Assembly (NCBI RefSeq): GCF_900230285.1
Contig: NZ_OCNK01000002.1
Span: forward strand, 744,001-808,000
DNA: 64,000 nucleotides
Origin: Blastococcus haudaquaticus
GTDB taxonomy: Bacteria > Actinomycetota > Actinomycetes > Mycobacteriales > Geodermatophilaceae
Direction of reading: 5' to 3'
Shown here piece after piece: positions 42,595 to 57,045 of this stretch; the first letter of the stretch is position 1, and every line of letters starts with the position of its first letter. Both the position numbers and the translations under genes were made by a program. The notes beneath the pieces were generated by a model, which worked only from the letters and a program-made list of their open reading frames with translations, searched no databases and was not told the origin of the DNA.

Positions 42595-42634
42595 GGCGGG
42601 GAATCCTGGCCCTCCCCGGCTCGTTGCCCCTGGC

Positions 42635-43054: not shown

Positions 43055-43110
43055 GCCCGTCGTCCGCCCCCGTCGTCCATGGGGGCGGACGACTTGCCAG
43101 ACTCACCGGT

Positions 43111-44307
43111 ATGTCGAACCCGCAGGTGTCGGTCGTGCACGACGAGGCCCTGGCCCGCGCGCGAGCAGTCACGCAGACGCTGGCCGCCGACGTGGTCGAG
43201 CGCGAGGCCGCCGGCAAGGCCCCGCTCCGCGAGGTGGAGCTGCTGCGGGAGTCCGGCCTCCTCCCCCTGCTGCTCCCGGCCGAGCACGGCGGCAGCGGCG
43301 CGGGCTGGCCGACCGCGTGGGCCGTCGTCCGGACCATCACCGCCGTCGACCCGTCCATCGGGCAGCTCCTCGGCTACCACTACCTGCACTCCTGGCGGAT
43401 CCGGCTCAACCGCCGTGCCGACGCGGTCGCCCGGCTGGACGCGGCCGGCGCCGCCGGTGCCTGGTTCTGGGGCGGCGCGGGCAACCCCCGGGACGCCGGC
43501 CTGCAGCTCGAGCCGGTCCGCGGCGGGTTCCTGCTGAGCGGCACCAAGCACTTCGCCACCGGCGCCGAGGTGGCCGACCGGATCAACGCCAGCGGGACCC
43601 GGACCGGCACCGGGGAGAAGCTCGCGCTGGCCGTCGACGCGCACCAGGACGGCGTCCGGCACGGTGGCGACTGGGACGCGCTCGGCCAGCGGCTCTCGGC
43701 GTCGGGCTCGGTCACCTTCGACGGTGCCTTCGTCTCCGAGGACGACGTCCTGGGGCCGAACGAGCAGGCCGACCCGGGCGCGCCGGCGTTCGCCACGCTG
43801 CACGTTCTGAGCTTCCAGGCGATGCTCGCCCAGCTCTACGTCGGCATCGCCGAGGGGGCCCTGGCCGCCGGCGCGGAGTACACCCGCACGAAGTCCCGCG
43901 CCTGGGCCACCTCGGGCGTCGAGGAGGCGGTCGACGACCCGCTCGTGCGGCAGCGCTACGGCCAGCTCGACGCACGGCTGCGGGCCGCCGCCGCCCTCGC
44001 CGACCGGGCGGCCGCATCGCTGACCAGGGCCGCGGAGCGGGGCTGGGACCTCGAGGCGCAGGAGCGGGCCGACGTCGCCGTCGAGCTGGCCGCCGCCAAG
44101 GTCGTGACCACCGAGGCCGCCCTCGAGGTCACCTCGACGGTGTTCGAGCTGACCGGCGCCCGGGCCACGAAGACCGGCACGGGACTGGACCGCTACTGGC
44201 GGGACGCCCGCACGCTCACGCTGCACGACCCGGCGGCGCACAAGGCCGTCGAGGTCGGTGACCGCCTCCTCAGCGGGACCGCGCCGGTGCCCAGCGCCTA
44301 CAGCTGA
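43111..44307 (+). CDS. Acyl-CoA dehydrogenase-fold flavoprotein, SfnB/DszC-like
   Basis: A 398-residue protein of the acyl-CoA dehydrogenase superfamily. It has LLLPAEHGGSGAGW, GYHYLHSWRIRLNR, LSGTKHFATGAEVAD and DRYWRDARTLTLHDP. The GYHYLHSWRI and arginine-rich end resemble the flavin monooxygenases DszC and SfnB, which oxidise dibenzothiophene and dimethylsulfone, more than true fatty acyl dehydrogenases. Proximity to msrB and mtn genes supports a role in organosulfur use. Substrate not known. It may be co-transcribed with msrB (56-bp gap). Confidence 0.8.
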   Translation: MSNPQVSVVHDEALARARAVTQTLAADVVEREAAGKAPLREVELLRESGLLPLLLPAEHGGSGAGWPTAWAVVRTITAVDPSIGQLLGYHYLHSWRIRLNRRADAVARLDAAGAAGAWFWGGAGNPRDAGLQLEPVRGGFLLSGTKHFATGAEVADRINASGTRTGTGEKLALAVDAHQDGVRHGGDWDALGQRLSASGSVTFDGAFVSEDDVLGPNEQADPGAPAFATLHVLSFQAMLAQLYVGIAEGALAAGAEYTRTKSRAWATSGVEEAVDDPLVRQRYGQLDARLRAAAALADRAAASLTRAAERGWDLEAQERADVAVELAAAKVVTTEAALEVTSTVFELTGARATKTGTGLDRYWRDARTLTLHDPAAHKAVEVGDRLLSGTAPVPSAYS

Positions 44308-44313
44308 GCCGGG

Positions 44314-44886
44314 TCAGCGCCCGGCGGCCAGCTGGTCGTACGTGGGGAACGAGCGGGAGATGCCACTGCCGGTGAAATTGCCGACCCAGCCGTCGTCGTC
44401 GTGGAAGAACCGCACGGAGACGTAGTCGGGGGCGGTGCCCATGTCGAACCAGTGGGTGGTGCCGCCGGGCACGGAGAGCAGGTCGCCGGCCTCGCAGAAC
44501 ACGGCGTGCACCTTGCCGTCGACGTGCAGGTAGAAGACGCCGGAGCCCTTCGCGAAAAAGCGGTCCTCGTCGTCGTCGTGGGTGTGCTCGTCGAGGAACT
44601 TCTCCCGGCTGGCCCGCACCGTCTCCGGCCACGACGGGTCGTCGCTGGGCTGCATCTGCACGACGTCGACCAGGACGTAGCCCTCGGAGGAGGAGACGGC
44701 GTCGATGCGCTCGCGGTAGGCATCAAGGACCTCGTCCTGGGTCACCTTGTCCGGGAGGTCCCGCAGCGGCCACTGCTCGAAGCGGACCCCGAGCTCCTTG
44801 AGGACGACGGCGATCTCCTCGGCGTCCTCCGTGCGGAGGGCGGGGGTCTCCGGAGCGTCCTCGCGCCAGACGGTCAGCAGCGTCAT
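44314..44886 (-). CDS. mtnD: Acireductone dioxygenase MtnD
   Basis: A 190-residue cupin that converts acireductone to 4-methylthio-2-oxobutanoate and formate in methionine salvage (or off-pathway with nickel). The metal ligands are in HTHDDDEDRFFAKGSGVF (His, His, Glu) and GGTTHWFDMG (His). Normal length. It is the last gene of the mtn operon and lies convergent to the flavoprotein gene with a 6-bp gap. A 69-bp gap separates it from mtnB. Confidence 0.95.
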   Translation of the reverse strand: MTLLTVWREDAPETPALRTEDAEEIAVVLKELGVRFEQWPLRDLPDKVTQDEVLDAYRERIDAVSSSEGYVLVDVVQMQPSDDPSWPETVRASREKFLDEHTHDDDEDRFFAKGSGVFYLHVDGKVHAVFCEAGDLLSVPGGTTHWFDMGTAPDYVSVRFFHDDDGWVGNFTGSGISRSFPTYDQLAAGR

Positions 44887-44955: not shown

Positions 44956-45603
44956 TCAGCGGAGGGCGCGGGTCTCCGTGGCGAAGGTCAGCAGGAACTC
45001 GAGGATCTCGGTGTGGTGACGGGCCTGGGCCAGGTCCTGTCCCCAGGCGTACATCCCGTGCCGCGCGACGACGAACCCCGGCGTCCGCCCGTCCCACTGC
45101 GGCTCGAACGCGCCTGCGATCTCGTCCATGTCCTGGCTGTTCGGGACGACGGGGACGACCACCGTCTCGTCGTGCGCGGCCCGCCCGATGCCCTTGAGCA
45201 TCTCCAGGTCCCGCAGCGGGACGCCGTCCGGGAACCAGTGCCCGGCGAGGACCGCTGCCATGGCGTGCACGTGGACGACGGCGTCGGCCCCGGTGACCTC
45301 GGCGATGCGCGCGTGGAGGGCGGCCTCGGCCGACGGCACGAGGTCCGGGCGCGGCTGGTCGGTGACCGCGGCACCGCGCCCGTCGACGACGACGACGTCC
45401 GAGCTGGTGAGCTCGCCCTTGTCCAGGCCGCTGACGGTGACGGCGAGCCGCAGGGGGTCGCGGTCGAGGACGACGGAGAGGTTGCCCGAGGTGCCGCGCA
45501 TCCAGCCCATGCCGGCGAAGCGGGCCGCCTCCGCGGCGAGCGCGCGGCCGGCCGCCTCGAGCTCTCCGGTGCCGATGCGCCGGCCTGCGGACGTCCCGCT
45601 CAC
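44956..45603 (-). CDS. mtnB: Methylthioribulose-1-phosphate dehydratase MtnB
   Basis: A 215-residue class II aldolase-fold enzyme that dehydrates methylthioribulose 1-phosphate. It has GWMRGTSGNLSVVL, SGLDKGELTSSDVVVV, the zinc motif VVHVHAMAAV and the third His in RHGMYAWGQDL. GTG start overlaps the mtnC stop by 4 bp. Normal length for MtnB. Confidence 0.94.
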   Translation of the reverse strand: MSGTSAGRRIGTGELEAAGRALAAEAARFAGMGWMRGTSGNLSVVLDRDPLRLAVTVSGLDKGELTSSDVVVVDGRGAAVTDQPRPDLVPSAEAALHARIAEVTGADAVVHVHAMAAVLAGHWFPDGVPLRDLEMLKGIGRAAHDETVVVPVVPNSQDMDEIAGAFEPQWDGRTPGFVVARHGMYAWGQDLAQARHHTEILEFLLTFATETRALR

Positions 45604-46313
45604 GAGTCGACCTCGACCCCGTCGAAGGACTCGATGATCGGCAGGTCGCCGAAGTCGGCGCCGGCGTTGGGCTCGCCCGCGCGGCGCACACCCACCACCT
45701 GCCAGCCGGCCTCCCGGGCGGCGTGCAGCTCGGCCGGCAGGTCGGACAGGAAGAGCAGCTCGCCCGGCGCGCGGCCGAGGGCGGCGGCGATGGTGTCGTA
45801 GGAGCCCGCGTCGCGCTTCGGCCCGGCGTTGACCGTGTCGAAGTAGGCGTCGATCAGCGGCGTGAGATCGCCGGCGGGGGCGTGCCGGAACCACGGCACC
45901 TGGCTGGCCACCGAGCCGGACGAGAACACCGCCAGGTGGACGCCGCGACCGTGCCACGCCCGCAGCTGCGGGACGACGTCGTCGAAGAAGTGGGACGACA
46001 GCTCCCCTGCGGCGTAGCCGGCCGCCCAGATCTGCCCCTGCAGGGTCTTCAACGGGGTCGCCTTGACGTCGCCGTCCATCCAGGCGTGCAGCAGTGCGAC
46101 GACCTCGGCGGTGCCGGCGTCGTCGGCGAGGCCGGCGTCGGCCTTGGTCTGGGCGACGGCGCCGGCGACGTCGGTGTCGTCGGGGTGGGCGTCGATCCAC
46201 GGGCCGAGCCGGGGGCGGGCGTAGTCGTAGAGCTCGCCGTGGACGTAGCCGGCCGCTCCGGTCGTGCCCTCGATGTCGAGGACCACCGTCCGGGCCGTGA
46301 GGTGCAGGGTCAC
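45600..46313 (-). CDS. mtnC: Acireductone synthase (enolase-phosphatase E1) MtnC
   Basis: A 237-residue HAD-superfamily enzyme that enolises and dephosphorylates the diketo intermediate. The HAD motif I is VVLDIEGTTG, diagnostic of MtnC, then VHGELYDYARPRL, motif II VFSSGSVASQ, DTVNAGPKRDAGSY (motif III Lys) and LFLSDLPAELHAAREAGW (motif IV). It lies 11 bp after mtnA and overlaps mtnB. Confidence 0.95.
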   Translation of the reverse strand: MTLHLTARTVVLDIEGTTGAAGYVHGELYDYARPRLGPWIDAHPDDTDVAGAVAQTKADAGLADDAGTAEVVALLHAWMDGDVKATPLKTLQGQIWAAGYAAGELSSHFFDDVVPQLRAWHGRGVHLAVFSSGSVASQVPWFRHAPAGDLTPLIDAYFDTVNAGPKRDAGSYDTIAAALGRAPGELLFLSDLPAELHAAREAGWQVVGVRRAGEPNAGADFGDLPIIESFDGVEVDS

Positions 46314-46324
46314 GGGCGGTCAGC

Positions 46325-47392
46325 CTACCGAGAGCTCCGGTGGGCCTCGTCCTGGTGGTACTGGGCCACGCGGTCAGGTGCGAACGGGCCCCGGTCGGTG
46401 ACGATGGTGGTCACCCAGCGCGGCGGGGTGACGTCGAACGCCGGGTACCAGCCCCGCTCGACCAGCGGCGACGCCGACCGGGCGCCGAGCACCGAGAGCA
46501 CCTCCAGGCCGTCGCGCTCCTCGACCACCACGTCGGCAACGGTCGCGGCCTGCGGGTCGGGTGCCTGGACCAGCGCCAGGAACGGGACGTCGAAGGCCGC
46601 GGCCGCGACGGCGTGGCCGAGGGTGCCGACCTTGTTGATGACGTGGCCGTCCATGGTCACGCGGTCGGCGGCCGTCACGAGGGCGTCGACCGGTCCGAGC
46701 GAGGAGCCGGGTGCGAGCGCGGCGGCCACCATGCCGTCGGTCACCAGGGTGACGTCCTGGCCCATCTCGGCCAGCGTGTGGGCGGTCAGCCGGGCGCCCT
46801 GGAGGTAGGGACGGGTCTCGGTCGCGATCCAGGTGTACTGCCGGCCGGCTGCGGCCGCGGCGCGCACCAACTCGACGAGATAGGTGTCCATCCAGCAGTG
46901 GGTCAGGACCCGGGCGCCCTCGGGCAGCAGCTCGACCGTCGCGGCGCCCAGTGCCGCGCTGCGGGCCCGGTAGTCCGCGGCGACGGCGGCGGCGGCGGCT
47001 TCGACCGCCTCGGCGAGCTGCGCGGACGACGCAGCGCGGACGACGTCGGGAGCGGTGAGCACCGCGGTCACGGCGTCGCGGACGTGGTTGTTCGTGGGGC
47101 GGGCGATGGTCAGGGCGGTGCCGGCGGACGCCAGGGTGGCGCGGGCGTCGTCGACCCGCCGGTCGGCGATCTGGCGGCCGGTCAGGGCCAGGCCGGCGGC
47201 GGCGGCGAACAGTGGGCCGGAGCTCTGCGTCACCATCGCGCGGATCGCCTCGGCGACCTCTTGCGCGTCGCGGGCCAGCACCCACTCCTCACGGGCCGGA
47301 AAGGTCCGCCGGTCGAGGATCGCGACGCCGTCGTCGGTGAGCCGGACGCTGTCGTCCAGCACGGGCCGGGGCAGGCCGGTGGTCACTGTCAT
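46325..47392 (-). CDS. mtnA: Divergent methylthioribose-1-phosphate isomerase (MtnA/eIF2B family)
   Basis: A 355-residue eIF2B-alpha-like isomerase that turns methylthioribose 1-phosphate into the ribulose form. The C-terminal half is canonical: ETRPYLQGARLTAHTLAEMG, the Asp in VTAADRVTMDG, NKVGTLG and YPAFDVTP. The catalytic Cys is kept in THCWMDTY, but the usual HCN-x-G is altered, and the N-terminal V-R-G-A-P-A-I-G motif reads TQSSGPLFAAA. The three following mtn genes support MtnA function; a changed phosphosugar preference is possible. First gene of the operon. Confidence 0.85.
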   Translation of the reverse strand: MTVTTGLPRPVLDDSVRLTDDGVAILDRRTFPAREEWVLARDAQEVAEAIRAMVTQSSGPLFAAAAGLALTGRQIADRRVDDARATLASAGTALTIARPTNNHVRDAVTAVLTAPDVVRAASSAQLAEAVEAAAAAVAADYRARSAALGAATVELLPEGARVLTHCWMDTYLVELVRAAAAAGRQYTWIATETRPYLQGARLTAHTLAEMGQDVTLVTDGMVAAALAPGSSLGPVDALVTAADRVTMDGHVINKVGTLGHAVAAAAFDVPFLALVQAPDPQAATVADVVVEERDGLEVLSVLGARSASPLVERGWYPAFDVTPPRWVTTIVTDRGPFAPDRVAQYHQDEAHRSSR

Positions 47393-47560
47393 GCCGCCAT
47401 CATCCTCCGTCGTCGGTGCTCCCCGGGTCCGGCCGACGAGGATCACGTCCGGCTGGGTAGAGCGACGACGTCGCCGTGAAGGCAGCTTTAGGGACAAGCG
47501 GTCCACGCCGATACAGCAGTGGAGAACGCTGCGAGATGAGCCACCGAAAGGAGGACCCGG

Positions 47561-47893
47561 ATGCCGTCGTCGCGTCACGGCCGCGTGCTGGCGGTCGTAT
47601 ACCTCCTTGCTGTCGCCGGATCAGTCACGACGTGGATGGTTCAGGGCGCGTATTCGACGGCCCTGATCATCACTCTGCTTCTGACCCTGCCGTGGAGTCT
47701 TGCCGCCTACTCACTTCTCATGGTGGCAGCCCTCGCCGTGCTCGCTGGGCCGGGAGCGGACAGCGGACCAGGGCAGGTGGCCCTGACGATGCTCGCAGTC
47801 CTGCTATTCCTGTCTGCAGCAGCTGCGAACGTGCTGATGACCGGCCCCCTCCTCCTCCGCTGGCGCAAAGGACGGCCCGACGCAACCTCCTGA
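47561..47893 (+). CDS. Small membrane protein of unknown function
   Basis: A 110-residue protein with three to four predicted helices (about residues 8-28, 33-60, 70-92) and a basic C-terminal end (RWRKGRP). AAAGGAGGACCC precedes the ATG. No family is recognised with certainty; similar short Streptomyces membrane proteins exist. It is divergent from mtnA and begins the accessory pocket that splits the two methionine-salvage operons. Confidence 0.65.
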   Translation: MPSSRHGRVLAVVYLLAVAGSVTTWMVQGAYSTALIITLLLTLPWSLAAYSLLMVAALAVLAGPGADSGPGQVALTMLAVLLFLSAAAANVLMTGPLLLRWRKGRPDATS

Positions 47894-48011
47894 GGTGTCC
47901 CATAGTGGGCCGCTCAGGGACAGCCGGCCGGCTCGCCCGATGGGCGATCAGGGACACGCCACCCCTGACAAGCGGCACGACGTCAGGCCTTGCCCGACCT
48001 ACCCTTCAGCG

Positions 48012-48452
48012 ATGCAGCGCGATATCGAGCGCCTGCGCCGGATGGCGCAGCTCGTGGAGGACGACCTGCGGGCGACCATGCCGGGCACCTGGAAGTGCGA
48101 CTTGCGGTCGGATTACGTCCTCGTCATCGGCTCCGAACAGGGAGTGGCCGAGCTCGCCATCGCCGAGGACGTCGACCGGGACAACTGGCCTGAGGAGGCC
48201 TGGACAGCGGAGTACCACGACTTCACCATCGACGAAGACGCAAACGAGGCAATCGCCGAGGCCGTTCAAGACGCGTTGGGCACCTGGGGCCTGCGCTGGC
48301 CGATCTGCCGGGAGCACAGTGCCCCACTTTCGCCCTGCAGCGGGGTTTGGGCCTGCTCGAGCGCCATCGCTCACGACCTCGCCGACGTCGGGGCGCTGTC
48401 GCCACAGCAGGCCACAGCCACTCACGAGACAGCTCCTCTGCAAGCGCCCTGA
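48012..48452 (+). CDS. Acidic cytoplasmic protein of unknown function
   Basis: A 146-residue acidic protein. The N-terminal part is helical (IERLRRMAQLVEDDL), and the C-terminal WPICREHSAPLSPCSGVWAC has a Cys/His pattern (C-x2-H...C...C) that may bind a metal. No family is recognised. The ATG at 48012 has no strong ribosome binding site. The 13-base string tgggccgctcagg occurs on both sides of the gene (47906 and 48476). Confidence 0.55.
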   Translation: MQRDIERLRRMAQLVEDDLRATMPGTWKCDLRSDYVLVIGSEQGVAELAIAEDVDRDNWPEEAWTAEYHDFTIDEDANEAIAEAVQDALGTWGLRWPICREHSAPLSPCSGVWACSSAIAHDLADVGALSPQQATATHETAPLQAP

Positions 48453-48644
48453 CCGCATTCGGCCGTGACTCTGAATGGGCCGCTCAGGAACCAAGGGCGG
48501 CATCCGGCACGTCTCGGTCCGCGCGGGTCTCTCGAGCTCGAGACATCGCAAGACGCGTTCCTGCGGTGGTCCTGGCACTACCAGTCATTCAACGAGGCCC
48601 GCGCGTGCTCGCATCAGGTCCGGCCGCACCGAGGCGGCTGTGAT

Positions 48645-49859
48645 TTAGGGCCCGGCGCGGGTGAGGATCTCGGTGCCGTCGGGGCGGTAGGTGTGCCATC
48701 GGTCGGTGCCGGGATCCCGCCGGATGCCGAACCGCCCTTCGTGCACAGAGGTGTGGTGGCGTTCGCAGAGCAGCGCACCGTTGTCGCAGTTCGTCGGGCC
48801 ACCGTGTGCCCAGTGGACGACATGGTGGAAATCGCACCACTCGGGCAGGGCGTCGCAGCCGGCGAACACGCAGTGCTCGTCGCGGACCTCGACCGCCCGC
48901 CGGATCCCTGCGCTGGGTGCGCGCTGCTCACGGCCGGAGTCCAGCGGCAGGCCGCTCGGGCCGGTGATGATGCGCGAGACGCCGGCATCGCACGCCAGCC
49001 GCCGCGCCGTCTCCGGGTTGATCGGACCGGCCCATCCCAGGGACCCGCCCCAGAACCCGGCCGCGCCACGCTCCGCGCACAGCGCCATCAGGTCGATGGT
49101 GACCCGCACGTGCGGGCGTTCCCCGCGGACGGTCGGCAGCCCGCCGGCGTCCAGGGCGCCGCGGGCGAGCGCCACCAGCGCCTCACCCTGTCGTTCGGCG
49201 TGCGAGCGCAGGTCGCCGGCCGGGCGGTCGCCGTTCATCAGCGCCCCGAGGGCGGTGTGCAGGTACTCCCCACCGGCGGCGTCGAGTTCGCCGCGCAGGT
49301 GCACCCGACCGTCCAGGCCGGTCGCCATGGTGAAGCGGCGGCGGGTGTCGGCGGCGTCGTCCAGCGTCCCGTCGGGATCCACCCCGGCGACCCAGGCCTT
49401 CACCCCGCGGGCGGTCTCGTGCGGCGCCGTCGCCCGGGCCAGGTCGGCCAGGATGCCGTCGGTCTCGGCCAGGTCGATGCCGGCGTCGGCGGCCTTCGCC
49501 AACCGGTCGGGCGTCATGGCCCGTGTGATCACCCGGGCGTGCGCGGCGCCGATCTCACCGGCGGCGAACGCCGCCGACGTCGCCGGCAGCTGCTCCAGCC
49601 GCCGACCGGTGGACACCGTCGCCGTCGCCACCTCCGGGGCCATCCGGCAGCTGCCGCGCAGCCAGGCCTTCATCGACACGGCCCCGTCCCGCTGATAGGC
49701 CTCCCGCGTGTCGGCCGCCCGGACCACGGACGTCAGCGCCGCGGCGATCCGGTTGCTCGCCGTGACCAGCTCAGCCGTCAGGTCCAGCAGCGCCTCGGCG
49801 GACAGTTCAGCGAGGTCGATCCCGGCCAGCTCATCCAGGGCCGAACGCAACTCCGACAC
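48645..49859 (-). CDS. DUF222-HNH endonuclease domain protein (13E12-like)
   Basis: A 404-residue protein with an N-terminal DUF222 helical domain (residues about 1-290) and a C-terminal HNH nuclease: HCVFAGCDALPEWCDFHHVV then NGALLCERHHTSVHEG, with both zinc-type Cys pairs and catalytic His intact. Such genes are present in many copies in actinobacterial genomes, share features with mycobacterial REP13E12 elements and are thought to be selfish or mobile. It sits between the mtnABCD operon and the mtnK operon. GTG start behind GGGGAGAGGGGG. Confidence 0.92.
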   Translation of the reverse strand: MSELRSALDELAGIDLAELSAEALLDLTAELVTASNRIAAALTSVVRAADTREAYQRDGAVSMKAWLRGSCRMAPEVATATVSTGRRLEQLPATSAAFAAGEIGAAHARVITRAMTPDRLAKAADAGIDLAETDGILADLARATAPHETARGVKAWVAGVDPDGTLDDAADTRRRFTMATGLDGRVHLRGELDAAGGEYLHTALGALMNGDRPAGDLRSHAERQGEALVALARGALDAGGLPTVRGERPHVRVTIDLMALCAERGAAGFWGGSLGWAGPINPETARRLACDAGVSRIITGPSGLPLDSGREQRAPSAGIRRAVEVRDEHCVFAGCDALPEWCDFHHVVHWAHGGPTNCDNGALLCERHHTSVHEGRFGIRRDPGTDRWHTYRPDGTEILTRAGP

Positions 49860-49963
49860 GTCCGACCCCCTCTCCCCACGGCTCCTACCGACACCCCGAC
49901 AGTAGGCAGGGGGTACGACAGAAACCGCAGGTCAGAGGCGGAAAGGACCCGCAAAGTCGAAAG

Positions 49964-51163
49964 TCAGCGGCCGGTCACCAGCGCCGCAACCACCGCGGGA
50001 TCGGGCTCGCCGCCCGGGCCGCGGAACGCCCCCCGGTCCAGCAGCAGCGCCCGCGCGGCCCGCAGCACGACCGCGCTCGCCGGGCCAGGGTCGGGCAGCG
50101 TCTCCAGGTCCTCGGCGTGCGAGTAGCCGGCGACCCGGCGGACCAGTTCCACGGCGGCGAACCCCAGGGTGTCGTCCCACACCGACGCGAGGTGGCGACG
50201 CAGCCAGCCCTCGTCGAGGAAGCCGTCGACCCGGTCGGGCCAGCCCGCGTGCCAGGCGGCGGTGAACGCCGTCCAGAGGACGCGGGCCTGCCCGGCGTGC
50301 TCGGCGGCCAACTCCCCGTCATCGAGCGCGGAGGCCCGGGCGGCCGCGATCAGCGCGTTGGCCAGGTACAGGCCCAGGTCGAGCCCGATCGGCCCGACGA
50401 CGGCGAACTCGGGGTCGATGACCCGGACCACCGCGACGCCGTCCCGCTCCCCCACCATCACGCTGCCGGAGTGCAGGTCGCCGTGCACCAAGGCCTCCGC
50501 GCGGGTGGCGAACGCCGCGCGCAGCGCCGAGACCTCGGTGCGCACCGCGCGATCCGCCCGCAGCGCCGCCACGTCGTCGGTCAACGACGGGTGCGCGCTG
50601 TTGTGCTCGTGCTCGAGGAAGGGCTCCGACAGCAAGTACTGCTCGGTGACCTCGGCCAGCACCGGGTTCACCGACGCGGCGAGCAGGGCGGCCCGGTCGG
50701 CGGCCGACGCCCCGGCCACGCTGGTCGCGAAGGTGACCCGCCCGATCAGGTCGCCCACCTGCGTGGAGGTGTCGCCGAAGCGGGCGCCCCGGGTGAGGGC
50801 GCCGCGCAGCACGACGAGGTCGGAGAGGTCCTCCATCGTGAACGCGAAGCGCTCCGGGTCGACGTCGACGACCACGGGCGTCTGCTCCGGCGCGAAGCGG
50901 GCGAACGTGGCCAGCGCCCGCGCCTCCACCATCGCTCGCTCGGGGCTCATCGGCGCGGACGGTCCGAGCACGCGGATCCACGGGGGCGCCTGCTTGACCG
51001 CCAGACCGGTACCGCCGTCGTCGGGGACGGCGACGAAGACCCGGTTCATGTTGCCGTCGCCGACCTCGCGCACGGTGCCGCTGCTGCCGGGGGCGACCAG
51101 CCCCCGGGACAGCAGGTACTCCCAGACGTCGGCGGCCTCGAGCACCACCCCGGCGTCAGCCAC
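49964..51163 (-). CDS. mtnK: S-methyl-5-thioribose kinase MtnK
   Basis: A 399-residue choline/aminoglycoside-kinase-fold enzyme that phosphorylates methylthioribose at C1. It has the Gly-rich loop EVGDGNMNRVFVAV, the catalytic loop LVHGDLHSGSVMV and the metal segment VIDPEFAVVGPIGLDLG, all MtnK-specific. Its product is the substrate of MtnA encoded 2.6 kb away. The GTG at 51163 overlaps the nucleoside hydrolase stop by 8 bp, making MtnK the last gene of the SAM-IV-led transporter operon. Normal length. Confidence 0.93.
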   Translation of the reverse strand: MADAGVVLEAADVWEYLLSRGLVAPGSSGTVREVGDGNMNRVFVAVPDDGGTGLAVKQAPPWIRVLGPSAPMSPERAMVEARALATFARFAPEQTPVVVDVDPERFAFTMEDLSDLVVLRGALTRGARFGDTSTQVGDLIGRVTFATSVAGASAADRAALLAASVNPVLAEVTEQYLLSEPFLEHEHNSAHPSLTDDVAALRADRAVRTEVSALRAAFATRAEALVHGDLHSGSVMVGERDGVAVVRVIDPEFAVVGPIGLDLGLYLANALIAAARASALDDGELAAEHAGQARVLWTAFTAAWHAGWPDRVDGFLDEGWLRRHLASVWDDTLGFAAVELVRRVAGYSHAEDLETLPDPGPASAVVLRAARALLLDRGAFRGPGGEPDPAVVAALVTGR

Positions 51164-52145
51164 GGGTGCCCGCCAGGACGGCGAGGAAGTCGCCCAGGAA
51201 GCCGGCGGCGTCCACCCCGGTCACCACGGTCGTCCGCGGCGCGGTGCGGGCCTCTTCCTGCGCGAAGGGCACCGGCAGTCCTTCGGCGGTGCGCAGCAGG
51301 TGCGCCCGCGACAGCCGGCCGTCGGGGACCACCGCTACCGGCCCCTCGAGGAAGGAGGTGATCCACCGCGGCTCGACCAGCAGGCCGGCGGCGAGTCCGT
51401 CCCAGGCCGGCGAGACCCGCCGTCCCCACGCGTACTGGTAGAAGTCCATGTAGGACTCCAGCACCGCCGCGGTGAACTCCCCGCCCGGCGTCCCGCTGCG
51501 GTGCAGCAGCTGCACGGCGGCCTCGTCGACGACCGTCGTGACGCCCACGTTGACCCCAACCATGACCAGCCGGCTGCGGGGCGCGGCGAACACCGCGCGC
51601 GCCGCCTCGGGATCGTTGCTCACGTTCGCGTCCACGATCTGCGCCACGCCCAGCGGCGGGAACGGCCCGGAGCCGCCCATGAGCACGGTCGAGCGGAACT
51701 TGGTCAGCACCAGCGGGTCCAGCTCCAGCGCCAGCGCGACGTTGGTCAGCGGACCCAGCGGCAGAAGGTCGTACCGTCCGGGCGCGGAGTTCGCCAGCTC
51801 GACGAGGTACTCGGCCGACGAGCGGTCCACCACGGCCGGCGACGGACGCTCCAGTCCGAGGTCGCCGAGCCCGTCCGCGCCGTGGACGTAGGGCGCCAGG
51901 CTGGCCGGACGCCCGTCGACCGGGCCGGCCGCGCCCGCCGCCACCGGCACGTCCTCGAGACCGGCCAGGCGCATGACCAGCCCGATGTTGAGCAGGGCGT
52001 CGTCCACGCTGCAGTTGCCGAAGACCGAGGTGACCGCGGCGACCTCCACGTCGGGCCGTCCGGCCAGGTAGAGCAGCGCCAGGGCGTCGTCGATCCCGGT
52101 GTCGGTGTCGACGACCACCTGCAGCGGTGCGGTAGAGCCGGTCAA
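51156..52145 (-). CDS. Inosine/uridine-preferring nucleoside hydrolase family protein
   Basis: A 329-residue IUNH. The calcium-binding signature is VVVDTDTGIDDALALLYLA and later residues include LLPLGPLTNVALAL, MGGSG and NVSNDPEAA. It cleaves the N-glycosidic bond of nucleosides to ribose and base. Placed directly between an importer and MtnK it probably supplies the nucleosidase step (methylthioadenosine to methylthioribose plus adenine), in place of MtnN; that substrate is inferred. TTG start at 52145 overlaps the permease stop by 4 bp and has GAGGAG upstream. Confidence 0.88.
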   Translation of the reverse strand: MTGSTAPLQVVVDTDTGIDDALALLYLAGRPDVEVAAVTSVFGNCSVDDALLNIGLVMRLAGLEDVPVAAGAAGPVDGRPASLAPYVHGADGLGDLGLERPSPAVVDRSSAEYLVELANSAPGRYDLLPLGPLTNVALALELDPLVLTKFRSTVLMGGSGPFPPLGVAQIVDANVSNDPEAARAVFAAPRSRLVMVGVNVGVTTVVDEAAVQLLHRSGTPGGEFTAAVLESYMDFYQYAWGRRVSPAWDGLAAGLLVEPRWITSFLEGPVAVVPDGRLSRAHLLRTAEGLPVPFAQEEARTAPRTTVVTGVDAAGFLGDFLAVLAGTRG

Positions 52146-53101
52146 CGAGTCTCCTCGGGGTGGACCACGGCTTCGGGATGGGCGGCGCTGACGGCCGCCA
52201 CGGGATCGACGTCGCGGAGCCGGCGGCGCACGCGCAGCCGGGAGGCGACCAGGACGATCAGCGTGACCAGGTACGGCGCGGCGTCGGTGAGCTGCTGCGG
52301 CAGGCCGACTCCCTGCAGCCGGAAGCCCCACGCCTCCGCGGCGCCGAACAGCAGGCACGCCCCCAGCACGAGCAGCGGCCGGTTCGCGGCGAGCATGACG
52401 GCGGCGACGGCGACCCAGCCGCGCCCGGCGGTCATGTTCTCGGTGAAGGCCGTGACGTTGCCCAGCGACAGCTGCGCGCCGCCCAGCCCGCACAGCGCAC
52501 CGGCCAGCAGCACGGTGACGTGCTGGTAGCGGGTCACCGAGACACCGAGGCTGGCGGCGGCCTCGGGGTGCTCCCCCACCCCGCGCAGCCGCAGCCCGGT
52601 CGAGGTGCGGTTGAGCCACAGGGACGCCGCGACGGCGAGGAGCAGTGCCAGTGGCACGAGGAGTGTCTGCCCACCCAGCAACGCGCCGAGCACCGGGATG
52701 CCGTCGAACACGTCGAGGTCGGGCAGCCCCGCCAGACCGGTCGGCGCGAAGGTGCCGGTCGCGTCCAGGAGCTCGCGGAGCAGGAAGCCGGTCAGGCCCA
52801 GAGCCAGCAGGTTCATGCCGACGGCGACGATGATCGGGTCGGCCCGCCAGCTGACAGCGCCGAGCGCCAGCACGCCGCTGAACACGGTCGTGGTGACGAC
52901 GGCCGCCGCGACCCCGGCCCAGGCGCTGCCGGTCCACCAGCTGACCGCCACCGCGGTGAACGCGCCGCAGAGCAGCTGCCCCTCCAACGCGATGTTGAAG
53001 ACGCCGGCCCGCCCGCACAGGGCACTGCCCAGCGCGGCGAACAGCACGGGCGCGGACGACGTCAGGACGGCGGCGACGAACGCGAGGGTGAAGACGTCCA
53101 T
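52142..53101 (-). CDS. Nucleoside-type ABC transporter permease 2 (NupQ-like)
   Basis: A 319-residue permease of the branched-chain/RbsC-like BPD_transp_2 family with about 8-9 helices. FNIALEGQLLCGAFTAVAV and VGMNLLALGLTGFLLRELL are typical of the second permease of BMP-linked nucleoside importers, as is YQHVTVLLAGALCGLGGAQL. It begins 3 bp after the stop of permease 1 and overlaps the hydrolase start. Confidence 0.92.
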   Translation of the reverse strand: MDVFTLAFVAAVLTSSAPVLFAALGSALCGRAGVFNIALEGQLLCGAFTAVAVSWWTGSAWAGVAAAVVTTTVFSGVLALGAVSWRADPIIVAVGMNLLALGLTGFLLRELLDATGTFAPTGLAGLPDLDVFDGIPVLGALLGGQTLLVPLALLLAVAASLWLNRTSTGLRLRGVGEHPEAAASLGVSVTRYQHVTVLLAGALCGLGGAQLSLGNVTAFTENMTAGRGWVAVAAVMLAANRPLLVLGACLLFGAAEAWGFRLQGVGLPQQLTDAAPYLVTLIVLVASRLRVRRRLRDVDPVAAVSAAHPEAVVHPEETR

Positions 53102-53104
53102 GGG

Positions 53105-54175
53105 TCAGACCTTTCCGCCGACGGCGTCGCGTGCGCGCCGGGCGACCCAGCGGGCGGCGAGCACCCGCAGCGCGAGCACGAGGATGACCACCGCCTGCAG
53201 GACCTGGCCGAGCTGCCGGGGCACGTCGACGTCGCGTTCCATGCCGGCCGAACCGACGGTCAGCACGGTGAACAGCGCCGCGGTCAGCGGCAGCAGCGCC
53301 GGCCGCCCGCCGGCCAGCAGCGCGGCCGCGATCCCGGCGAAGGTGTAGCCGGGTGCGGTGAGCGCGTCGTCGATGAACCGGAACGGCTGGCTCATCACGA
53401 TGATCGCCCCGGCGAGGCCGGCGACGGCCCCGGCGGCGACGAGCGTGCCCAGGGTCAGCCGCGGCACCGACAGGCCGCCGTACGCGGCGAACCCGCGGTT
53501 GGCGCCCGCCACCCGGATCTCGTAGCCGACCGGGGTGCGGGAGTCGACGCGCACCGCCAGCAGGAGCACCAGGACCACGACCACGAGGCCCGCGTTCGTG
53601 TAGCTCGTCCCCGGAAAGGACGGCAGGTGCGCGGCATCGGGGAGTCGGGACGTCTGCGGCACCGCCGAGCCGCGCTCGGCCAGCGGGAAGCGGACGAGGT
53701 AGGAGGTCAGGGCCACCGCCGGCGCGCTCAGCAGCAGCGTCGAGATGATCACCGGCACGCCCGCGCGGGTGGACAGCGGCGCGGAGACCGAGGCGAGCGC
53801 GGCACCGCCCAGTGCACCGGCGACCAGGCAGACCGGGAGCAGCACGATCGCCGGGGCCGGCAGGTAGAGCGCGACGACGGCGGCGGAGATGCCGCCCAGT
53901 GCGAGCTGCCCGTCCCCGCCGAGGTTGTACTCGCCCATGCGCGCGGGGACGGCGAAGGCGAGGGACATCGCGAGGATGGCCGTGAACGAGGCGACGGCGA
54001 AGTCGATGTTGCTGACGCTCAGGGCGCCGCGGACCATCGCGTCGTAGCCGCGCAGCGGGTCCACCCCCGCCACGGCCATGACGACGGCGCCGACCAGCAG
54101 CGCCACCACCACCGCACCCAGCGGGACCAGCGCCGCCGGTGCGGCCAGCCGGAGCCGGGCGACGAGCCCGCTCAC
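53105..54175 (-). CDS. Nucleoside-type ABC transporter permease 1 (NupP-like)
   Basis: A 356-residue permease with about 9-10 helices. MGEYNLGGDGQLALGGISAA and VAGANRGFAAYGGLSVPRLT are family signatures of the first permease of nucleoside importers (YufP/NupP). GTG start overlaps the ATPase gene stop by 4 bp. It forms a heterodimer with permease 2. Confidence 0.92.
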   Translation of the reverse strand: MSGLVARLRLAAPAALVPLGAVVVALLVGAVVMAVAGVDPLRGYDAMVRGALSVSNIDFAVASFTAILAMSLAFAVPARMGEYNLGGDGQLALGGISAAVVALYLPAPAIVLLPVCLVAGALGGAALASVSAPLSTRAGVPVIISTLLLSAPAVALTSYLVRFPLAERGSAVPQTSRLPDAAHLPSFPGTSYTNAGLVVVVLVLLLAVRVDSRTPVGYEIRVAGANRGFAAYGGLSVPRLTLGTLVAAGAVAGLAGAIIVMSQPFRFIDDALTAPGYTFAGIAAALLAGGRPALLPLTAALFTVLTVGSAGMERDVDVPRQLGQVLQAVVILVLALRVLAARWVARRARDAVGGKV

Positions 54176-55755
54176 GAGCCCGCCCGGGAAGAGCCGTCGT
54201 CGGGCCGGGTCGCGTGCACCATCGCCGCGCCCAGCACCTCCTCGGTCGCGTCGGCCGCGTCGAGGTCCGCGGTCACCACGCCGTCCAGCATGACGAGCAC
54301 GCGGTCGGCCAGCGCGCGCAGCTCGCTGATCTCGTAGGAGACCAGGAGCACCGCGCCGCCGCGGGCGCGGTAGTCCAGAAGCAGCCGGTGGATCTCCTCC
54401 CCCGCGCCGACATCGACACCCTGCGTCGGCTGCTCGACCACCAGGAGCGGCGCCTCGTGGTGCAGCTCGCGGGCCAGGACCACCTTCTGCGCGTTGCCGC
54501 CCGACAGCGACGCGAGCGGCGCGTTCACCCCGGCCGTCTTCACCCCGAGCCGGCGGACCAGCTCACCGGCCTGGGCGCGCACCGCGCGGGGCGAGAGCCG
54601 CGCCCGGCTCCCGAGCGGAGGGGTGCGGTGGTGGCCCAGCGCCAGGTTGTCGGCGACGGAGAGGCTCGCCGCGGTACCCATCCCGGGCCGGTCCTCCGGC
54701 ACGTAGGCGATCCCCCGCCCGCGGCGCTCGCGCACCCCGAGGCCGGCGAGGTCCTGCCCGTGCAGCAGCACGCTGCCGCCGTCCGGGGAGCGCAGCCCGA
54801 GCACGGACTCGACCACCTCGCGCTGCCCGTTGCCGGAGACACCCGCGATGCCGACGACCTCGCCGGGTCGCACCTGCAGCGACACCCCGTGCACCCCGGC
54901 CGCACCCGGCGCCGCCGCCAGGCGGAGGTCGCTCACCTCGAGCACCGGTTCCCCGCTGACGGCGCCGCGCGGGTTGACGGCGGGCTTCAGGCCGCGGCCG
55001 ATCATCGCCTCGACGATCTCGCCGGCCGTCGTCCGGGCCGTCTCCAGCCGGGCGGACACCACGCCGTCGCGGAGCACCGTCACGCGGTCGGTCGCCTCGA
55101 GCACCTCGCGGACCTTGTGGGTGACCAGCGCGACGGTGGTCCCCTGGGCTGCCATCGACCGCACGACCGCGAAGAGGGAGTCCACCTCGCCCGGGGTCAG
55201 GACGGCGGTCGGCTCGTCGAGGATGAGCACCTCCGCCTGCCGGTGCAGCGCCTTGAGGATCTCCACGCGCTGGCGCACCCCGAGCGGCAGCGTGTCCACC
55301 CGCGCCGACGGGTCGACGTCCAGGCCGAAGCGCCCGGCGAGCTCGGTGACCCGCTGCTCGGCCGCCCGGCGGTCGTACACGCCCCACCGGCCGGGCTCCG
55401 CTCGGTAGACGACGTTCTCGGCCACGGTCAGCGAGCCGAACAGCCGGAAGTGCTGGTGGACCATGCCGAGGCCGGCGTCGATCGCGTCCAGCGGGGAACG
55501 CAGCCGCAGCTCGCGCCCGTTCCGCAGGACCGCACCGGCGTCGGGACGCTGCAGCCCGTAGAGGACCGACATCAGGGTCGACTTGCCGGCGCCGTTCTCG
55601 CCGACGACGGCGTGGACGGTCCCCCGCTCGAGGACGAGATCCACGCCGTCGACGGCGAGCACCGGACCGAACCGCTTGGTGATGCCACGCAGCTCGGCCG
55701 CGGGGGTGTCCGCCCCCGCGGCCGGGCGCGCGTCGTCCGGGTGCAGGTCGGTCAT
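54172..55755 (-). CDS. Nucleoside-type ABC transporter double ATPase (NupO-like)
   Basis: A 527-residue protein with two ABC cassettes in one chain. The first has VVGENGAGKSTLMSVLYG, the signature-like LPLGVRQRVEILKAL and LILDEPTAVLTPGE. The second has GIAGVSGNGQREVVESVLG (degenerate Walker A), LSGGNAQKVVLARELHHEAP and VVEQPTQGVDVGA. This layout is typical of sugar and nucleoside importers in the RbsA/YufO family. ATG at 55755 overlaps the stop of the lipoprotein gene by 4 bp. Confidence 0.94.
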   Translation of the reverse strand: MTDLHPDDARPAAGADTPAAELRGITKRFGPVLAVDGVDLVLERGTVHAVVGENGAGKSTLMSVLYGLQRPDAGAVLRNGRELRLRSPLDAIDAGLGMVHQHFRLFGSLTVAENVVYRAEPGRWGVYDRRAAEQRVTELAGRFGLDVDPSARVDTLPLGVRQRVEILKALHRQAEVLILDEPTAVLTPGEVDSLFAVVRSMAAQGTTVALVTHKVREVLEATDRVTVLRDGVVSARLETARTTAGEIVEAMIGRGLKPAVNPRGAVSGEPVLEVSDLRLAAAPGAAGVHGVSLQVRPGEVVGIAGVSGNGQREVVESVLGLRSPDGGSVLLHGQDLAGLGVRERRGRGIAYVPEDRPGMGTAASLSVADNLALGHHRTPPLGSRARLSPRAVRAQAGELVRRLGVKTAGVNAPLASLSGGNAQKVVLARELHHEAPLLVVEQPTQGVDVGAGEEIHRLLLDYRARGGAVLLVSYEISELRALADRVLVMLDGVVTADLDAADATEEVLGAAMVHATRPDDGSSRAGS

Positions 55756-56813
55756 CCAGCGGCCGGGTCGTCCACGGTCACGGTGCCGTCGATGATCTGC
55801 TCCTGGACCTCGCGGACCTGCTCGATGACGTCCGGGCGGTCGGCGATGAGGCAGCCGGAGGAGTCCACGTCGTCCTCCAGGGCGGTGAGGCCCACGCCGT
55901 CCTCGGCGAGGCCGTAGACCTGGAAGCCGCCGGTGTTGCCGTCGAGGATCTCGGTCACCGCGCCGGCGAGCGCGACGTCCACGTTCTTCAGCACGTTGTC
56001 CACGACCTGCCCGGGCGCGGATGCGCACTCGTTGACGTCGACGCCGTACGCCTGGAAGCCGCCGGCCGTGGCGACCTCGAAGGCGCCCACGTTGCTGCCG
56101 GACGCCGCGAGCAGCACCTGGTCCGCCCCCTGGTCGGCGAGCACCTGGGCCTGCGCCTTGCCGCGCGCCGGGTCGCCGAAGGGGTTGTCACCGCCGACGA
56201 ACAGCGGGGTGGAGGTGACCGTCGCGTCGACGCTGGCCGCGCCGGCGGCGAATGGGTCGACCCAGCGGCGGATGAAGGGCGTGTCCAGCGCGGCGACGAC
56301 GCCGATCTGCTTGGTCTCGCTGAGCAGGCCGGCCTCGACCCCGGCGAGGTAGGCGGCCTCGTGCTCACGGAAGGCGGCGCAGGTGACGTTCTCCGGCTGC
56401 GGATCGGGGCAGCCGTCGACGAGCAGGAACTGCTGGTCGGGGTTGTCCAGCGGCACGGTCGCGAAGGCGTCCTGCAGGGAGAACGACAGACCCACGACGA
56501 TGTCCGGCTTCTCGCGGACCGCGGCCTCGACGTTCTGCTGGATCGAGGTGGGGTCGGTGCTCTCGAACACGTCCAGCTCGAGGCCCTTCTCCTCCGCCAC
56601 GTCCTCCGCGCCCTGGACGGCGAGCTCGAGGAAGTTGTTGCCGCCGACGGGGTTCGGCGTGATGACGATGATCGAGCCGGCGCTCTCCTCGCCACCCTCA
56701 CCGCCCCCGGAGGAGCCGGAGTCGGCGCAGGCCGTCAGCCCCAGCACCGTCGCGAGCAGGGCTGCGGCAACCGGTCCGGAACGGCGGACGGTGCGGCGGG
56801 GGACGTCGTTCAT
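55752..56813 (-). CDS. BMP-family nucleoside-binding lipoprotein
   Basis: A 353-residue substrate-binding lipoprotein of the basic membrane protein/PnrA family. The lipobox is GLTAC (Cys29), then a Gly/Ser linker and the two-lobed fold with IIVITPNPVGGNNFLELAVQ, PDIVVGLSFSLQDA, FREHEAAYLAGVEAGL and VLLAASGSNVGAFEVA. Family members bind purine nucleosides. AAGGAGAGCTC precedes the ATG. It is the first gene behind the SAM-IV riboswitch, which suggests a ligand linked to SAM metabolism such as methylthioadenosine. Confidence 0.92.
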   Translation of the reverse strand: MNDVPRRTVRRSGPVAAALLATVLGLTACADSGSSGGGEGGEESAGSIIVITPNPVGGNNFLELAVQGAEDVAEEKGLELDVFESTDPTSIQQNVEAAVREKPDIVVGLSFSLQDAFATVPLDNPDQQFLLVDGCPDPQPENVTCAAFREHEAAYLAGVEAGLLSETKQIGVVAALDTPFIRRWVDPFAAGAASVDATVTSTPLFVGGDNPFGDPARGKAQAQVLADQGADQVLLAASGSNVGAFEVATAGGFQAYGVDVNECASAPGQVVDNVLKNVDVALAGAVTEILDGNTGGFQVYGLAEDGVGLTALEDDVDSSGCLIADRPDVIEQVREVQEQIIDGTVTVDDPAAG

Positions 56814-56924
56814 GAGCTCTCCTTGACGGCGTGCGCCACGAGGTCCGCGGCACGAGGAACGGACACCCGGGCGGCACGCGCTGGAGAGGACGGGCGGGAC
56901 GGTGCTGGTTCCACCGGGCTTCCC
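56814..56924 (-). promoter_or_regulatory. Expression platform between SAM-IV and the lipoprotein gene
   Basis: The last 110 bases of the leader can form a long-range stem (GCGTGC with GCACGC) enclosing a GTCCG...CGGAC hairpin just before the ribosome binding site AAGGAGAGCTC. No U-rich terminator is visible, so control of translation initiation or Rho-type termination is likelier than intrinsic termination. Confidence 0.45.
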
Positions 56925-57045
56925 TCCGCTTCGTCCTTACCGGGACACGTCTCGTCCAGGTCAGGTCATCACCCGGGAGCACCCCGCGACGGAGAGGGTT
57001 GCCGGCCAGCGAGCCGGGGCTTGACGCTGGCACTCGAGACCGTCG
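56925..57045 (-). ncRNA. SAM-IV riboswitch leading the nucleoside importer/mtnK operon
   Basis: Read on the minus strand from 57041, the leader contains GAGTGCCAGCGTCAAGCCC, then GGCTCGCTGGCCGGCAACC, CTC, a GC-rich stem ending GGGGTGC, and CCCGGGTGATGACC (56964). These are the conserved core positions of the actinobacterial SAM-IV class in the right order: P1 closed by GGTC/GACC, P2 GCCAGCG/CGCTGGC with a C-rich loop, the GGCAACC junction and P3. A further hairpin (GGAC...GTCC) and GAAGCGGAGGG follow to about 56925. SAM-IV binds S-adenosylmethionine and lowers expression downstream. The match is from memory of the family consensus, not a covariance search. Confidence 0.9.

Follow-up and report, generated by a model that had tools for sequence, protein, structure and literature searches.

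The locus described here raises the question of which compound is taken up by an ABC importer of the nucleoside type whose genes lie, behind a SAM-sensing RNA, next to those of methionine salvage. Methionine salvage is generally presented as recycling within the cell; 5'-methylthioadenosine (MTA) is made by polyamine-producing cells, and some bacteria excrete MTA or its sugar. ABC uptake in methionine salvage has been named for methylthioribose, according to excerpts of PMC4239095. In the 64-kb window, i.e. the whole stretch of DNA that was analysed, from a soil actinobacterium, the gene cluster probably encodes what looks like a dedicated MTA pump together with the enzymes of methionine return. 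A probability of about 0.72 is assigned to the reading of the operon as one for MTA scavenging, in which SAM-IV control, a BMP-type importer, a nucleoside hydrolase, MtnK and MtnA-C-B-D are combined in a path toward methionine. With this assignment, low SAM would permit operon expression through the SAM-IV leader, the BMP lipoprotein would catch extracellular MTA for import by the ATPase/permease complex, the hydrolase would cleave it to adenine and methylthioribose, and MtnK would phosphorylate the latter, with MtnA-C-B-D then leading toward methionine.

The importer, the hydrolase and the kinase are encoded by a run of six genes on the (-) strand: a BMP-family substrate-binding lipoprotein, the proposed MTA receptor (55752..56813; PF02608, 136.7 bits, gathering score 24.1), with an LTAC lipobox read by eye; a double-ATPase subunit (54172..55755; two PF00005 (ABC_tran) stretches); permease A (53105..54175; PF02653, 93.4 bits); permease B (52142..53101; PF02653, 116.1 bits); an IU-type nucleoside hydrolase, the proposed MTA hydrolase (51156..52145; PF01156, 202.8 bits, cut-off 34.2); and mtnK for methylthioribose kinase (49964..51163; TIGR01767 equivalog, 313.6 bits, cut-off 275), the closest solved structure being that of methylthioribose kinase 2olc (E 1.2e-57). 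These profile matches bear out the families assigned in the original prediction, and the junctions read from the sequence (ATGA, GTGA and TTGA overlaps, a 3-bp gap and an 8-bp overlap) agree with its description of genes joined by overlaps or a 3-bp gap. Downstream of mtnK, and on the same strand, mtnA-C-B-D together span 47392-44314: mtnC for acireductone synthase (enolase-phosphatase; 45600..46313; TIGR01691, 209 bits, cut-off 128.1), mtnB for methylthioribulose-1-phosphate dehydratase (44956..45603; TIGR03328, 170.1 bits, cut-off 137.05), mtnD for acireductone dioxygenase (44314..44886; PF03079, 90.4 bits, cut-off 27; without an NCBIfam match) and, leading them, a diverged mtnA for methylthioribose-1-phosphate isomerase (46325..47392; PF01008, 156.3 bits). 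The window MtnA falls under both MtnA cut-offs (PRK05720, 239.1 of 271; TIGR00512, 186.5 of 279), a point that counts against the MTA reading; the MtnA of the Streptomyces-type locus L019 passes both, with TIGR00512 and PRK05720 scores of 411.6 and 381.2.

The mtnA-C-B-D genes had been taken as a separate operon 2.6 kb away. The distance stands, but three close relatives (L016, L017 and L020) share the order SAM-IV, BMP, ATP, PermA, PermB, NH, MtnK, MtnA, MtnC, MtnB, with mtnK and mtnA spaced within approximately 100 nt, MtnD further downstream and a double ATPase 86-87% identical to that of the window. The stretch between mtnK and mtnA (47393..49963), which carries a DUF222/HNH ORF (48645-49859, (-); PF02720, 125.6 bits; PF01844, 21.6 bits) and small ORFs, is absent in these relatives. 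Thus, the 2.6-kb spacing corresponds to an insertion, and the genes form one salvage operon that is interrupted in the window. The linkage is kept, in another order, in two other families, where three genomes (G199, G267 and G350) encode the same proteins, 44-71% identical, as BMP-ATP-PermA-PermB-MtnA-NH, followed by MtnK-MtnC-MtnB in two of them and by MtnC-MtnB, with MtnK on the opposite strand, in G350. Matches to the importer profile were obtained in 5/394 genomes of the class and in 30/295 genomes of one genus taken as Streptomyces. The importer BMP proteins form a single clade (support 95/99), and all 39 loci examined have mtnA, mtnB and mtnC next to it, in at least three gene arrangements; in the Streptomyces-type genus mtnA, B, C and D are all within 10 kb of the importer (30/30 loci). 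The cleaving step consists of hydrolase and MtnK in 7 of the 39.

The leader was predicted to carry a SAM-IV riboswitch, and a covariance search identified the aptamer at 56928..57041 (RF00634 at 57041-56928, (-); 86.7 bits against a gathering score of 38, E 3.9e-14, full length over model positions 1-116), the only Rfam match above the gathering score within the window. The BMP start codon lies 114 nt past the aptamer end; simple scans of the leader revealed neither terminator-like nor sigma-70-like sites, and its folding is no better than that of shuffled sequences (z −0.54). SAM-IV is also found up to approximately 230 nt upstream of the BMP match in the three close relatives, giving 4/4 Geodermatophilaceae loci, against 0/3 loci from the two other families and 0/17 Streptomyces-type genomes scanned at the importer. 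The association of the riboswitch with the importer is lineage-specific, so that the argument on the substrate should rest on the linked enzymes, and SAM-IV was set aside as an identifier of the substrate, not being found at the importer outside Geodermatophilaceae among the loci scanned. Its absence there is a further observation that counts against the MTA reading. Where the original prediction took the riboswitch and MtnK together as pointers to a sulfur-salvage specialist, the argument is now carried by the linked enzymes. A SAM-IV riboswitch of metXY genes was reportedly described by Weinberg in 2008. The window copy resembles the metXY SAM-IV riboswitches, as presented in excerpts of PMC4239095, in its full aptamer match, but is followed by an operon for nucleoside import and salvage instead.

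The receptor belongs to the same Pfam family, with the same importer make-up, as PnrA/TmpC, BmpA and BmpD and the BMP-type ABC importers, and the two stacking Phe and the ribose-binding Asp/Asp/Lys of these proteins align with the window BMP (by alignment rather than structure; excerpts of PMC13325309 and PMC7093131). Phe61, Phe212, Asp133, Asp259 and Lys276 are invariant in alignment A2; with all the ribose-binding residues kept, sequence alone shows no selectivity at the 5' position. The importer clade differs from these systems in its linkage to methionine-salvage genes, and the GDxSFN stretch reads GxNxFL in it. Identity to the remaining BMPs encoded in the same genomes is 22-32% (19 aligned). 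The naming 'putative B6 ABC transporter' of NCBIfam models NF047927-NF047930 was rejected, all four subunits being below cut-off (66.8 of 400, 434.1 of 670, 140.3 of 400 and 135.4 of 465 bits, respectively). Judged by the linked enzymes, MTA or a closely related 5'-modified purine nucleoside is the likeliest substrate.

The hydrolase retains the Ca-binding DxDxxxDD motif, with Asp13, Asp15, Asp19, Asp20 and Asp249 kept. Two residues of the ribose pocket, at the Asn/Glu positions, are those that presumably contact the 5'-OH of the substrate. In LreRihC these Asn and Glu (N162 and E168) line the ribose pocket (PMC10778931); in the window enzyme the aligned residues are Gly166 and Asp172, and Asn174 is kept. 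The two alpha-8 Tyr that excerpts of PMC8910321 tie to purine hydrolysis are also kept. The Gly/Asp pair occurs in nine hydrolases, seven of them mtn-linked, and Asn/Glu in 16/16 typical relatives aligned. The signature also occurs outside the operon, which counts against the MTA reading: G292 has it without an importer or a strong MtnK match (Pfam gave no match for the five ORFs flanking its hydrolase), G396 carries it away from its own mtn genes, and Asp172 is also present in 4/6 intermediate hydrolases without importer. Characterised nucleoside hydrolases require the 5'-OH, and 5'-deoxyinosine is no substrate of the Crithidia enzyme (excerpts of PMC12648331 and PMC8910321); thus MTA hydrolysis would be new for the fold, and this requirement, too, counts against the MTA reading.

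Neither MtnN nor an MTA phosphorylase of the PF01048 type was found in the genome. Its single PF01048 gene was rejected for both roles, being a PNP by TIGR01698 (307.6, cut-off 302.6) and far under the cut-off of the MTAP model (74.1 of 274.85). This, with the changed ribose pocket, argues for the predicted replacement of MtnN by the hydrolase. Bacillus-type MtnN-MtnK-MtnABCD salvage likewise proceeds by hydrolysis to methylthioribose, then MtnK and MtnA onward (excerpts of PMC6302742), but in the window the nucleosidase would be of the IU type (PF01156) rather than PF01048, and a nucleoside importer is part of the operon.

A route through MTA deaminase and methylthioinosine phosphorylase occurs in Pseudomonas and Plasmodium. 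This route, as given in excerpts of PMC3885546, is the probable counterpart of the Streptomyces-type importer branch and was not seen in the window cluster, which has hydrolase and MtnK instead. A PNP-type phosphorylase is encoded in 31/32 Streptomyces-type loci (29/30 in the 295-genome set) and an MTA-deaminase-like amidohydrolase in 30/32 (28/30); close solved relatives of the latter include MTA/SAH deaminase 4f0r. Neither protein passes the cut-off of any named enzyme, the best model for the amidohydrolase being that of a general TRZ/ATZ hydrolase (403.5 of 540). MtnK is present in 19/30 loci, always alongside a second ABC importer. In 2 of the remaining 11 loci the contig stops on the side in question; the other 9 extend far enough for a verdict, so that MtnK is missing in 9/28 loci of judgeable length, as expected if phosphorolysis makes MtnK dispensable. 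As judged from these family assignments, the nucleoside-cleaving step is swapped between locus types, hydrolase plus MtnK for phosphorylase plus amidohydrolase. Together with the continuous operon of the three relatives and the linkage in two other families, this alternative supports the predicted MTA-type importer, with the hydrolase acting for MtnN and MtnK feeding MtnA-C-B-D.

Import and salvage of several 5'-deoxynucleosides derived from SAM, among which 5'-deoxyadenosine would matter as much as MTA, with MtnK/MtnA handling 5-deoxyribose in the style of a DHAP shunt, is considered unlikely. E. coli MtnK, MtnA and Ald2 serve both MTA and 5'-deoxyadenosine (excerpts of PMC12632272), the change in the hydrolase pocket would suit any 5'-deoxy substrate, the window MtnA is diverged, and the Streptomyces-type amidohydrolase reaches 346.7 bits with the model of 5'-deoxyadenosine deaminase and 235 with that of MTA/SAH deaminase, both below cut-off. 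However, the window cluster includes the methylthio-branch genes mtnC and mtnD, mtnA-D are found in all 30 Streptomyces-type loci, and the window's class II aldolase-fold gene exceeds the MtnB cut-off. A nonspecialised system, with an importer and hydrolase of ordinary, broad purine-nucleoside range placed near the salvage genes by chance or for a general supply of adenine and ribose, would agree with the conserved ribose and sandwich residues and with the common nucleosides bound by BMP receptors of known ligand (excerpts of PMC7093131 and PMC13325309). This is quite improbable given the adjacency of mtnA, B and C across arrangements in all 39 loci examined, the separate generic BMP of the genome (G000:C2:473119, 206.7 bits) and its two further PF01156 matches elsewhere; moreover, none of 21 other BMP matches in 14 genomes is within 20 kb of the MtnK matches obtained.

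Uptake of methylthioribose rather than MTA, with a hydrolase that clears endogenous MTA, would account for MtnK adjoining the hydrolase and for the nucleosidase that MTA from polyamine synthesis needs where MtnN was not found. It is nevertheless judged very improbable, since in L017 and L020 a second MtnK comes with its own sugar-type ABC importer, the 19 Streptomyces-type loci with MtnK have a second ABC beside it, and nine further Streptomyces-type loci have the BMP importer with MtnK absent from the examined stretch. The sugar-type binding protein matches PF13407 in L020 and L019 and is RbsB-like in L020; by comparison with mtnXYZ (excerpts of PMC4239095), this ABC beside MtnK is a more natural methylthioribose system than the BMP importer. 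Furthermore, BmpA and BmpD have nucleosides, not ribose, as ligands (excerpts of PMC7093131 and PMC13325309). The mtnXYZ uptake (Leyn et al. 2014; excerpts of PMC4239095) shares with the window the tie to mtn genes and methionine control, but is named for the sugar, whereas the window importer is of the nucleoside type and the sugar-type ABC is separate in relatives.

Returning to MTA scavenging, the comparison tends to favour a family of dedicated BMP-type MTA importers in actinobacteria, paired in evolution with two unrelated ways of cleaving one and the same nucleoside, and what would be the first IU-fold hydrolase dedicated to a substrate lacking the 5'-OH, through replacement of the pocket Asn and Glu. 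Among the open-licence PMC matches listed, titles and abstract openings name no bacterial MTA importer or IU-type hydrolase acting on MTA. The E. coli mtnK-mtnA-ald2 DHAP shunt operon uses exogenous MTA and 5'-deoxyadenosine and includes a putative transporter gene, but for carbon use, not methionine salvage, and with a single putative permease; excerpts of PMC12632272 describe no BMP-type ABC, IU-type hydrolase or SAM-IV there. With a dedicated importer, if this reading is true, MTA would become a sulfur source that is traded in soil, a substrate would be assigned to a clade that the best NCBIfam models label 'putative B6 transporter', and a nucleoside hydrolase would be available for direct study of the role of the 5'-OH in catalysis by the family. 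A SAM-IV at 15370-15514 of L149, 1.4 kb before mtnD with one gene intervening (by eye), was left out of the count, and the other SAM-IV of the genome lies ahead of a metY-like gene, as named by eye.

On the minus strand, a SAM-IV riboswitch (57041-56928) is followed by six genes encoding a BMP lipoprotein, a double ATPase, two permeases (PermA and PermB), an IU-type nucleoside hydrolase (NH) and MtnK, with adjacent ends either overlapping or 3 bp apart, as the original prediction had read them. The predicted SAM-IV leader ahead of the importer genes was confirmed by a covariance match over the full model length (Rfam, 86.7 bits; cut-off, 38; E, 3.9e-14), the sole RNA family over its gathering score in the window. 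The family matches also agreed with the proposed gene identities, and MtnK scores above the equivalog cut-off for methylthioribose kinase (313.6 bits versus 275). The mtnA-mtnC-mtnB-mtnD genes, placed 2.6 kb away, do begin 2.57 kb beyond MtnK; mtnC and mtnB exceed their model cut-offs and mtnD is a PF03079 match, but mtnA scores under the cut-offs of its models. This MtnA (46325-47392) is diverged, and the canonical MtnA of the Streptomyces-type clusters discussed below is approximately 34% identical to it.

A search for MtnK led to five loci in named genomes. The loci of Blastococcus endophyticus (L016), Trujillonella endophytica (L017) and Blastococcus sp. CPCC 205250 (L020) share one gene order, namely SAM-IV, BMP, ATPase, PermA, PermB, NH, MtnK, MtnA, MtnC and MtnB, with MtnD further on, so that the conservation sought in related genomes is present. 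Their operon proteins are 75-87% identical to those of the window, and mtnK and mtnA are separated by approximately 100 nt at most. Judged from sequence, the salvage genes are one operon, interrupted in the window, where the 2.6-kb stretch contains a DUF222/HNH gene (48645-49859); this stretch is missing from that site in the three relatives. L017 and L020 also carry an extra MtnK between mtnB and mtnD (43% identical; TIGR01767, 332.1 and 315 bits), accompanied by a second ABC importer, of the sugar type in L020; these units (L017 11366-15257, L020 13896-18763) are probably for methylthioribose uptake.

MtnK over the cut-off is uncommon, being found in 2 of 76 genomes of the family and 13 of 394 of the class (the window's genome is counted in both). 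Twelve loci were fetched from the remaining 12 class genomes, and three of them (G350, G199 and G267, from two other families) combine the same importer and NH with mtnA, mtnC, mtnB and MtnK, and in two cases mtnD, in a gene order unlike that of the window. Neither importer nor NH was found in the fetched stretches of the other nine, and some of these stretches stop at a contig end. When the 394 class genomes were searched with an importer-BMP profile of nine rows (threshold, E up to 1e-60), five matched, i.e. the window's, the same three and G453. Overall, mtnA, mtnB and mtnC lie beside the importer in all 39 loci examined (seven with NH, 32 Streptomyces-type), which come from related genomes and are not independent; 34 were found or refound by the importer profile alone and five via MtnK. 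The three mtn genes lie no more than 9 kb away in the relatives that were fetched, and no more than 12 kb away in the window. In the BMP tree, the importer proteins form a clade of 17 rows with one origin (support, 95/99; with a long-branch warning among other BMPs), within which the Streptomyces-type rows are one branch.

The cluster of G453 consists of mtnD-C-B, mtnA, BMP-ATPase-PermA-PermB, a PNP-superfamily phosphorylase and an amidohydrolase, with no NH, and this genome is not in the set of 13 with MtnK over the cut-off. Its genus is taken to be Streptomyces because it resembles L018 and L019, two loci from named genomes. The profile detected the importer in 30 of 295 genomes of this genus, and all 30 loci (G453 and 29 others) were fetched. 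In every one of them mtnA, B, C and D lie close to the BMP gene, and none shows an NH; the phosphorylase is present in 29 and the amidohydrolase in 28 (L164 ends with the contig; L161 is without amidohydrolase). Two further loci of named Streptomyces (L018/L073 and L019/L072) agree. The phosphorylase and amidohydrolase stand at the operon end, replacing NH, at L072 6286-8321, L073 4737-6790 and L129 12839-14898. The close solved relatives of the amidohydrolase include an MTA/SAH deaminase (4f0r, E 7.9e-80); its top score is to the general TRZ/ATZ model and it scores lower with the models for MTA/SAH deaminase and 5'-deoxyadenosine deaminase, without reaching the cut-off of any of the three. 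No cut-off is reached by the phosphorylase either, which falls in the uridine phosphorylase/PNP group.

MtnK is present in all seven NH loci. It is found in 19 of the 30 Streptomyces-type loci, always together with another ABC importer (of the sugar type in L019, where typed), a pair that adjoins the mtn genes and is comparable to that of L017 and L020. Of the 11 fetched loci in which it was not found, L136 and L150 are cut by the contig end on that side and nine reach far enough, G453 only just; the search outside the locus covered G453 alone. In our reading, deaminase and phosphorylase would give methylthioribose 1-phosphate directly, making the kinase unneeded, while the hydrolase route would need MtnK. 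With one importer and one downstream pathway joined to two unrelated nucleoside-cleaving routes, the shared substrate of the importer family would most simply be 5'-methylthioadenosine (MTA).

From the behaviour of the SAM-IV class, repression of the operon by SAM is to be expected. SAM-IV precedes the operon in all four Geodermatophilaceae loci, in none of the three remaining NH loci (two other families), and is absent from the importer in the 17 Streptomyces-type genomes scanned, from 32 in total. A second SAM-IV in the B. haudaquaticus genome precedes a metY-like gene (named by eye). In the Streptomyces-type locus L149, a SAM-IV (15370-15514, 67.3 bits) lies 1.4 kb ahead of mtnD with one gene intervening, and Streptomyces-metH RNA (RF03076) occurs within approximately 6 kb of mtnK at L018 16912-17032, L019 17190-17286 and L040 3246-3376.

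The mtn-linked NHs of other loci are 57-86% identical to that of the window, and the remaining NHs of the 16 genomes searched at most 46%. The Ca-site Asp and Asn174 are conserved. In the alignment, position 166 is Gly in 7/7 mtn-linked NHs versus Asn in 11/15 others, and position 172 is Asp in 7/7 versus Glu in 13/15. A larger alignment, from which two rows were dropped, has Gly/Asp in nine NHs (the seven mtn-linked ones and those of genomes G292 and G396) and Asn/Glu in 16/16 typical NHs; in six intermediate proteins position 166 is Gly or a gap, and position 172 is Asp in four of them. The spacing of 166, 172 and 174 equals that of N162, E168 and N170 in LreRihC, the first two of which contact the 5'-OH. 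All three line the ribose pocket (PMC10778931). Crithidia NH does not accept 5'-deoxyinosine and the 5'-OH is worth 5.4 kcal/mol in T. vivax NH (PMC12648331; PMC8910321); 5'-fluoro-5'-deoxyadenosine is a substrate of the latter (PMC7408626), and 5' tolerance therefore has precedent. Tyr232 and Tyr236, invariant in the seven mtn-linked NHs, align with a pair of tyrosines on helix 8 that PMC8910321 connects with purine hydrolysis. The residue before the last Ca Asp is His in three of the seven and Trp in the four Geodermatophilaceae NHs, as in IAG-NH (Trp260, Asp261; PMC4660014).

The class-wide search also revealed NH relatives in G292 (62%) and in four genomes of its genus (50-57% over protein parts), all without the importer. 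The G292 protein (L130 231-1172) has the same pocket signature; its genome is without a strong MtnK match, and Pfam matched none of five neighbouring ORFs.

No other known MTA-cleaving enzyme was found in the B. haudaquaticus genome (completeness, 99.97%) by a PF01048 search, the only match being a PNP (TIGR01698, 307.6, cut-off 302.6; MTAP, 74.1 of 274.85). PF01156 and PF02608 each have two more matches in this genome, none near the cluster.

The two stacking Phe of BMP receptors and the Asp/Asp/Lys set that binds ribose in them (PMC13325309, PMC7093131) are conserved in the importer BMP. In BmpD, the Asn of the generic stretch GDxSFN takes part in a water network that reaches the base; in the importer proteins this stretch reads GxNxFL. 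These residues support a nucleoside ligand with an altered base side, short of proving MTA. The original prediction knew of no such sulfur-salvage importer, and among the matches listed in open-licence literature there was no description of an importer of the nucleoside type that serves methionine salvage specifically, the role proposed here. The parts are ordinary and their assembly is apparently undescribed.

Running toward mtnD from the opposite side, the window also encodes (42572-44307) MsrB, which exceeds its cut-off (176.2 bits versus 113.05), and an oxidoreductase closest to the models for DszC and SfnB, where it stays below cut-off (270.4 and 252.2 bits, respectively); these are possibly further sulfur genes.
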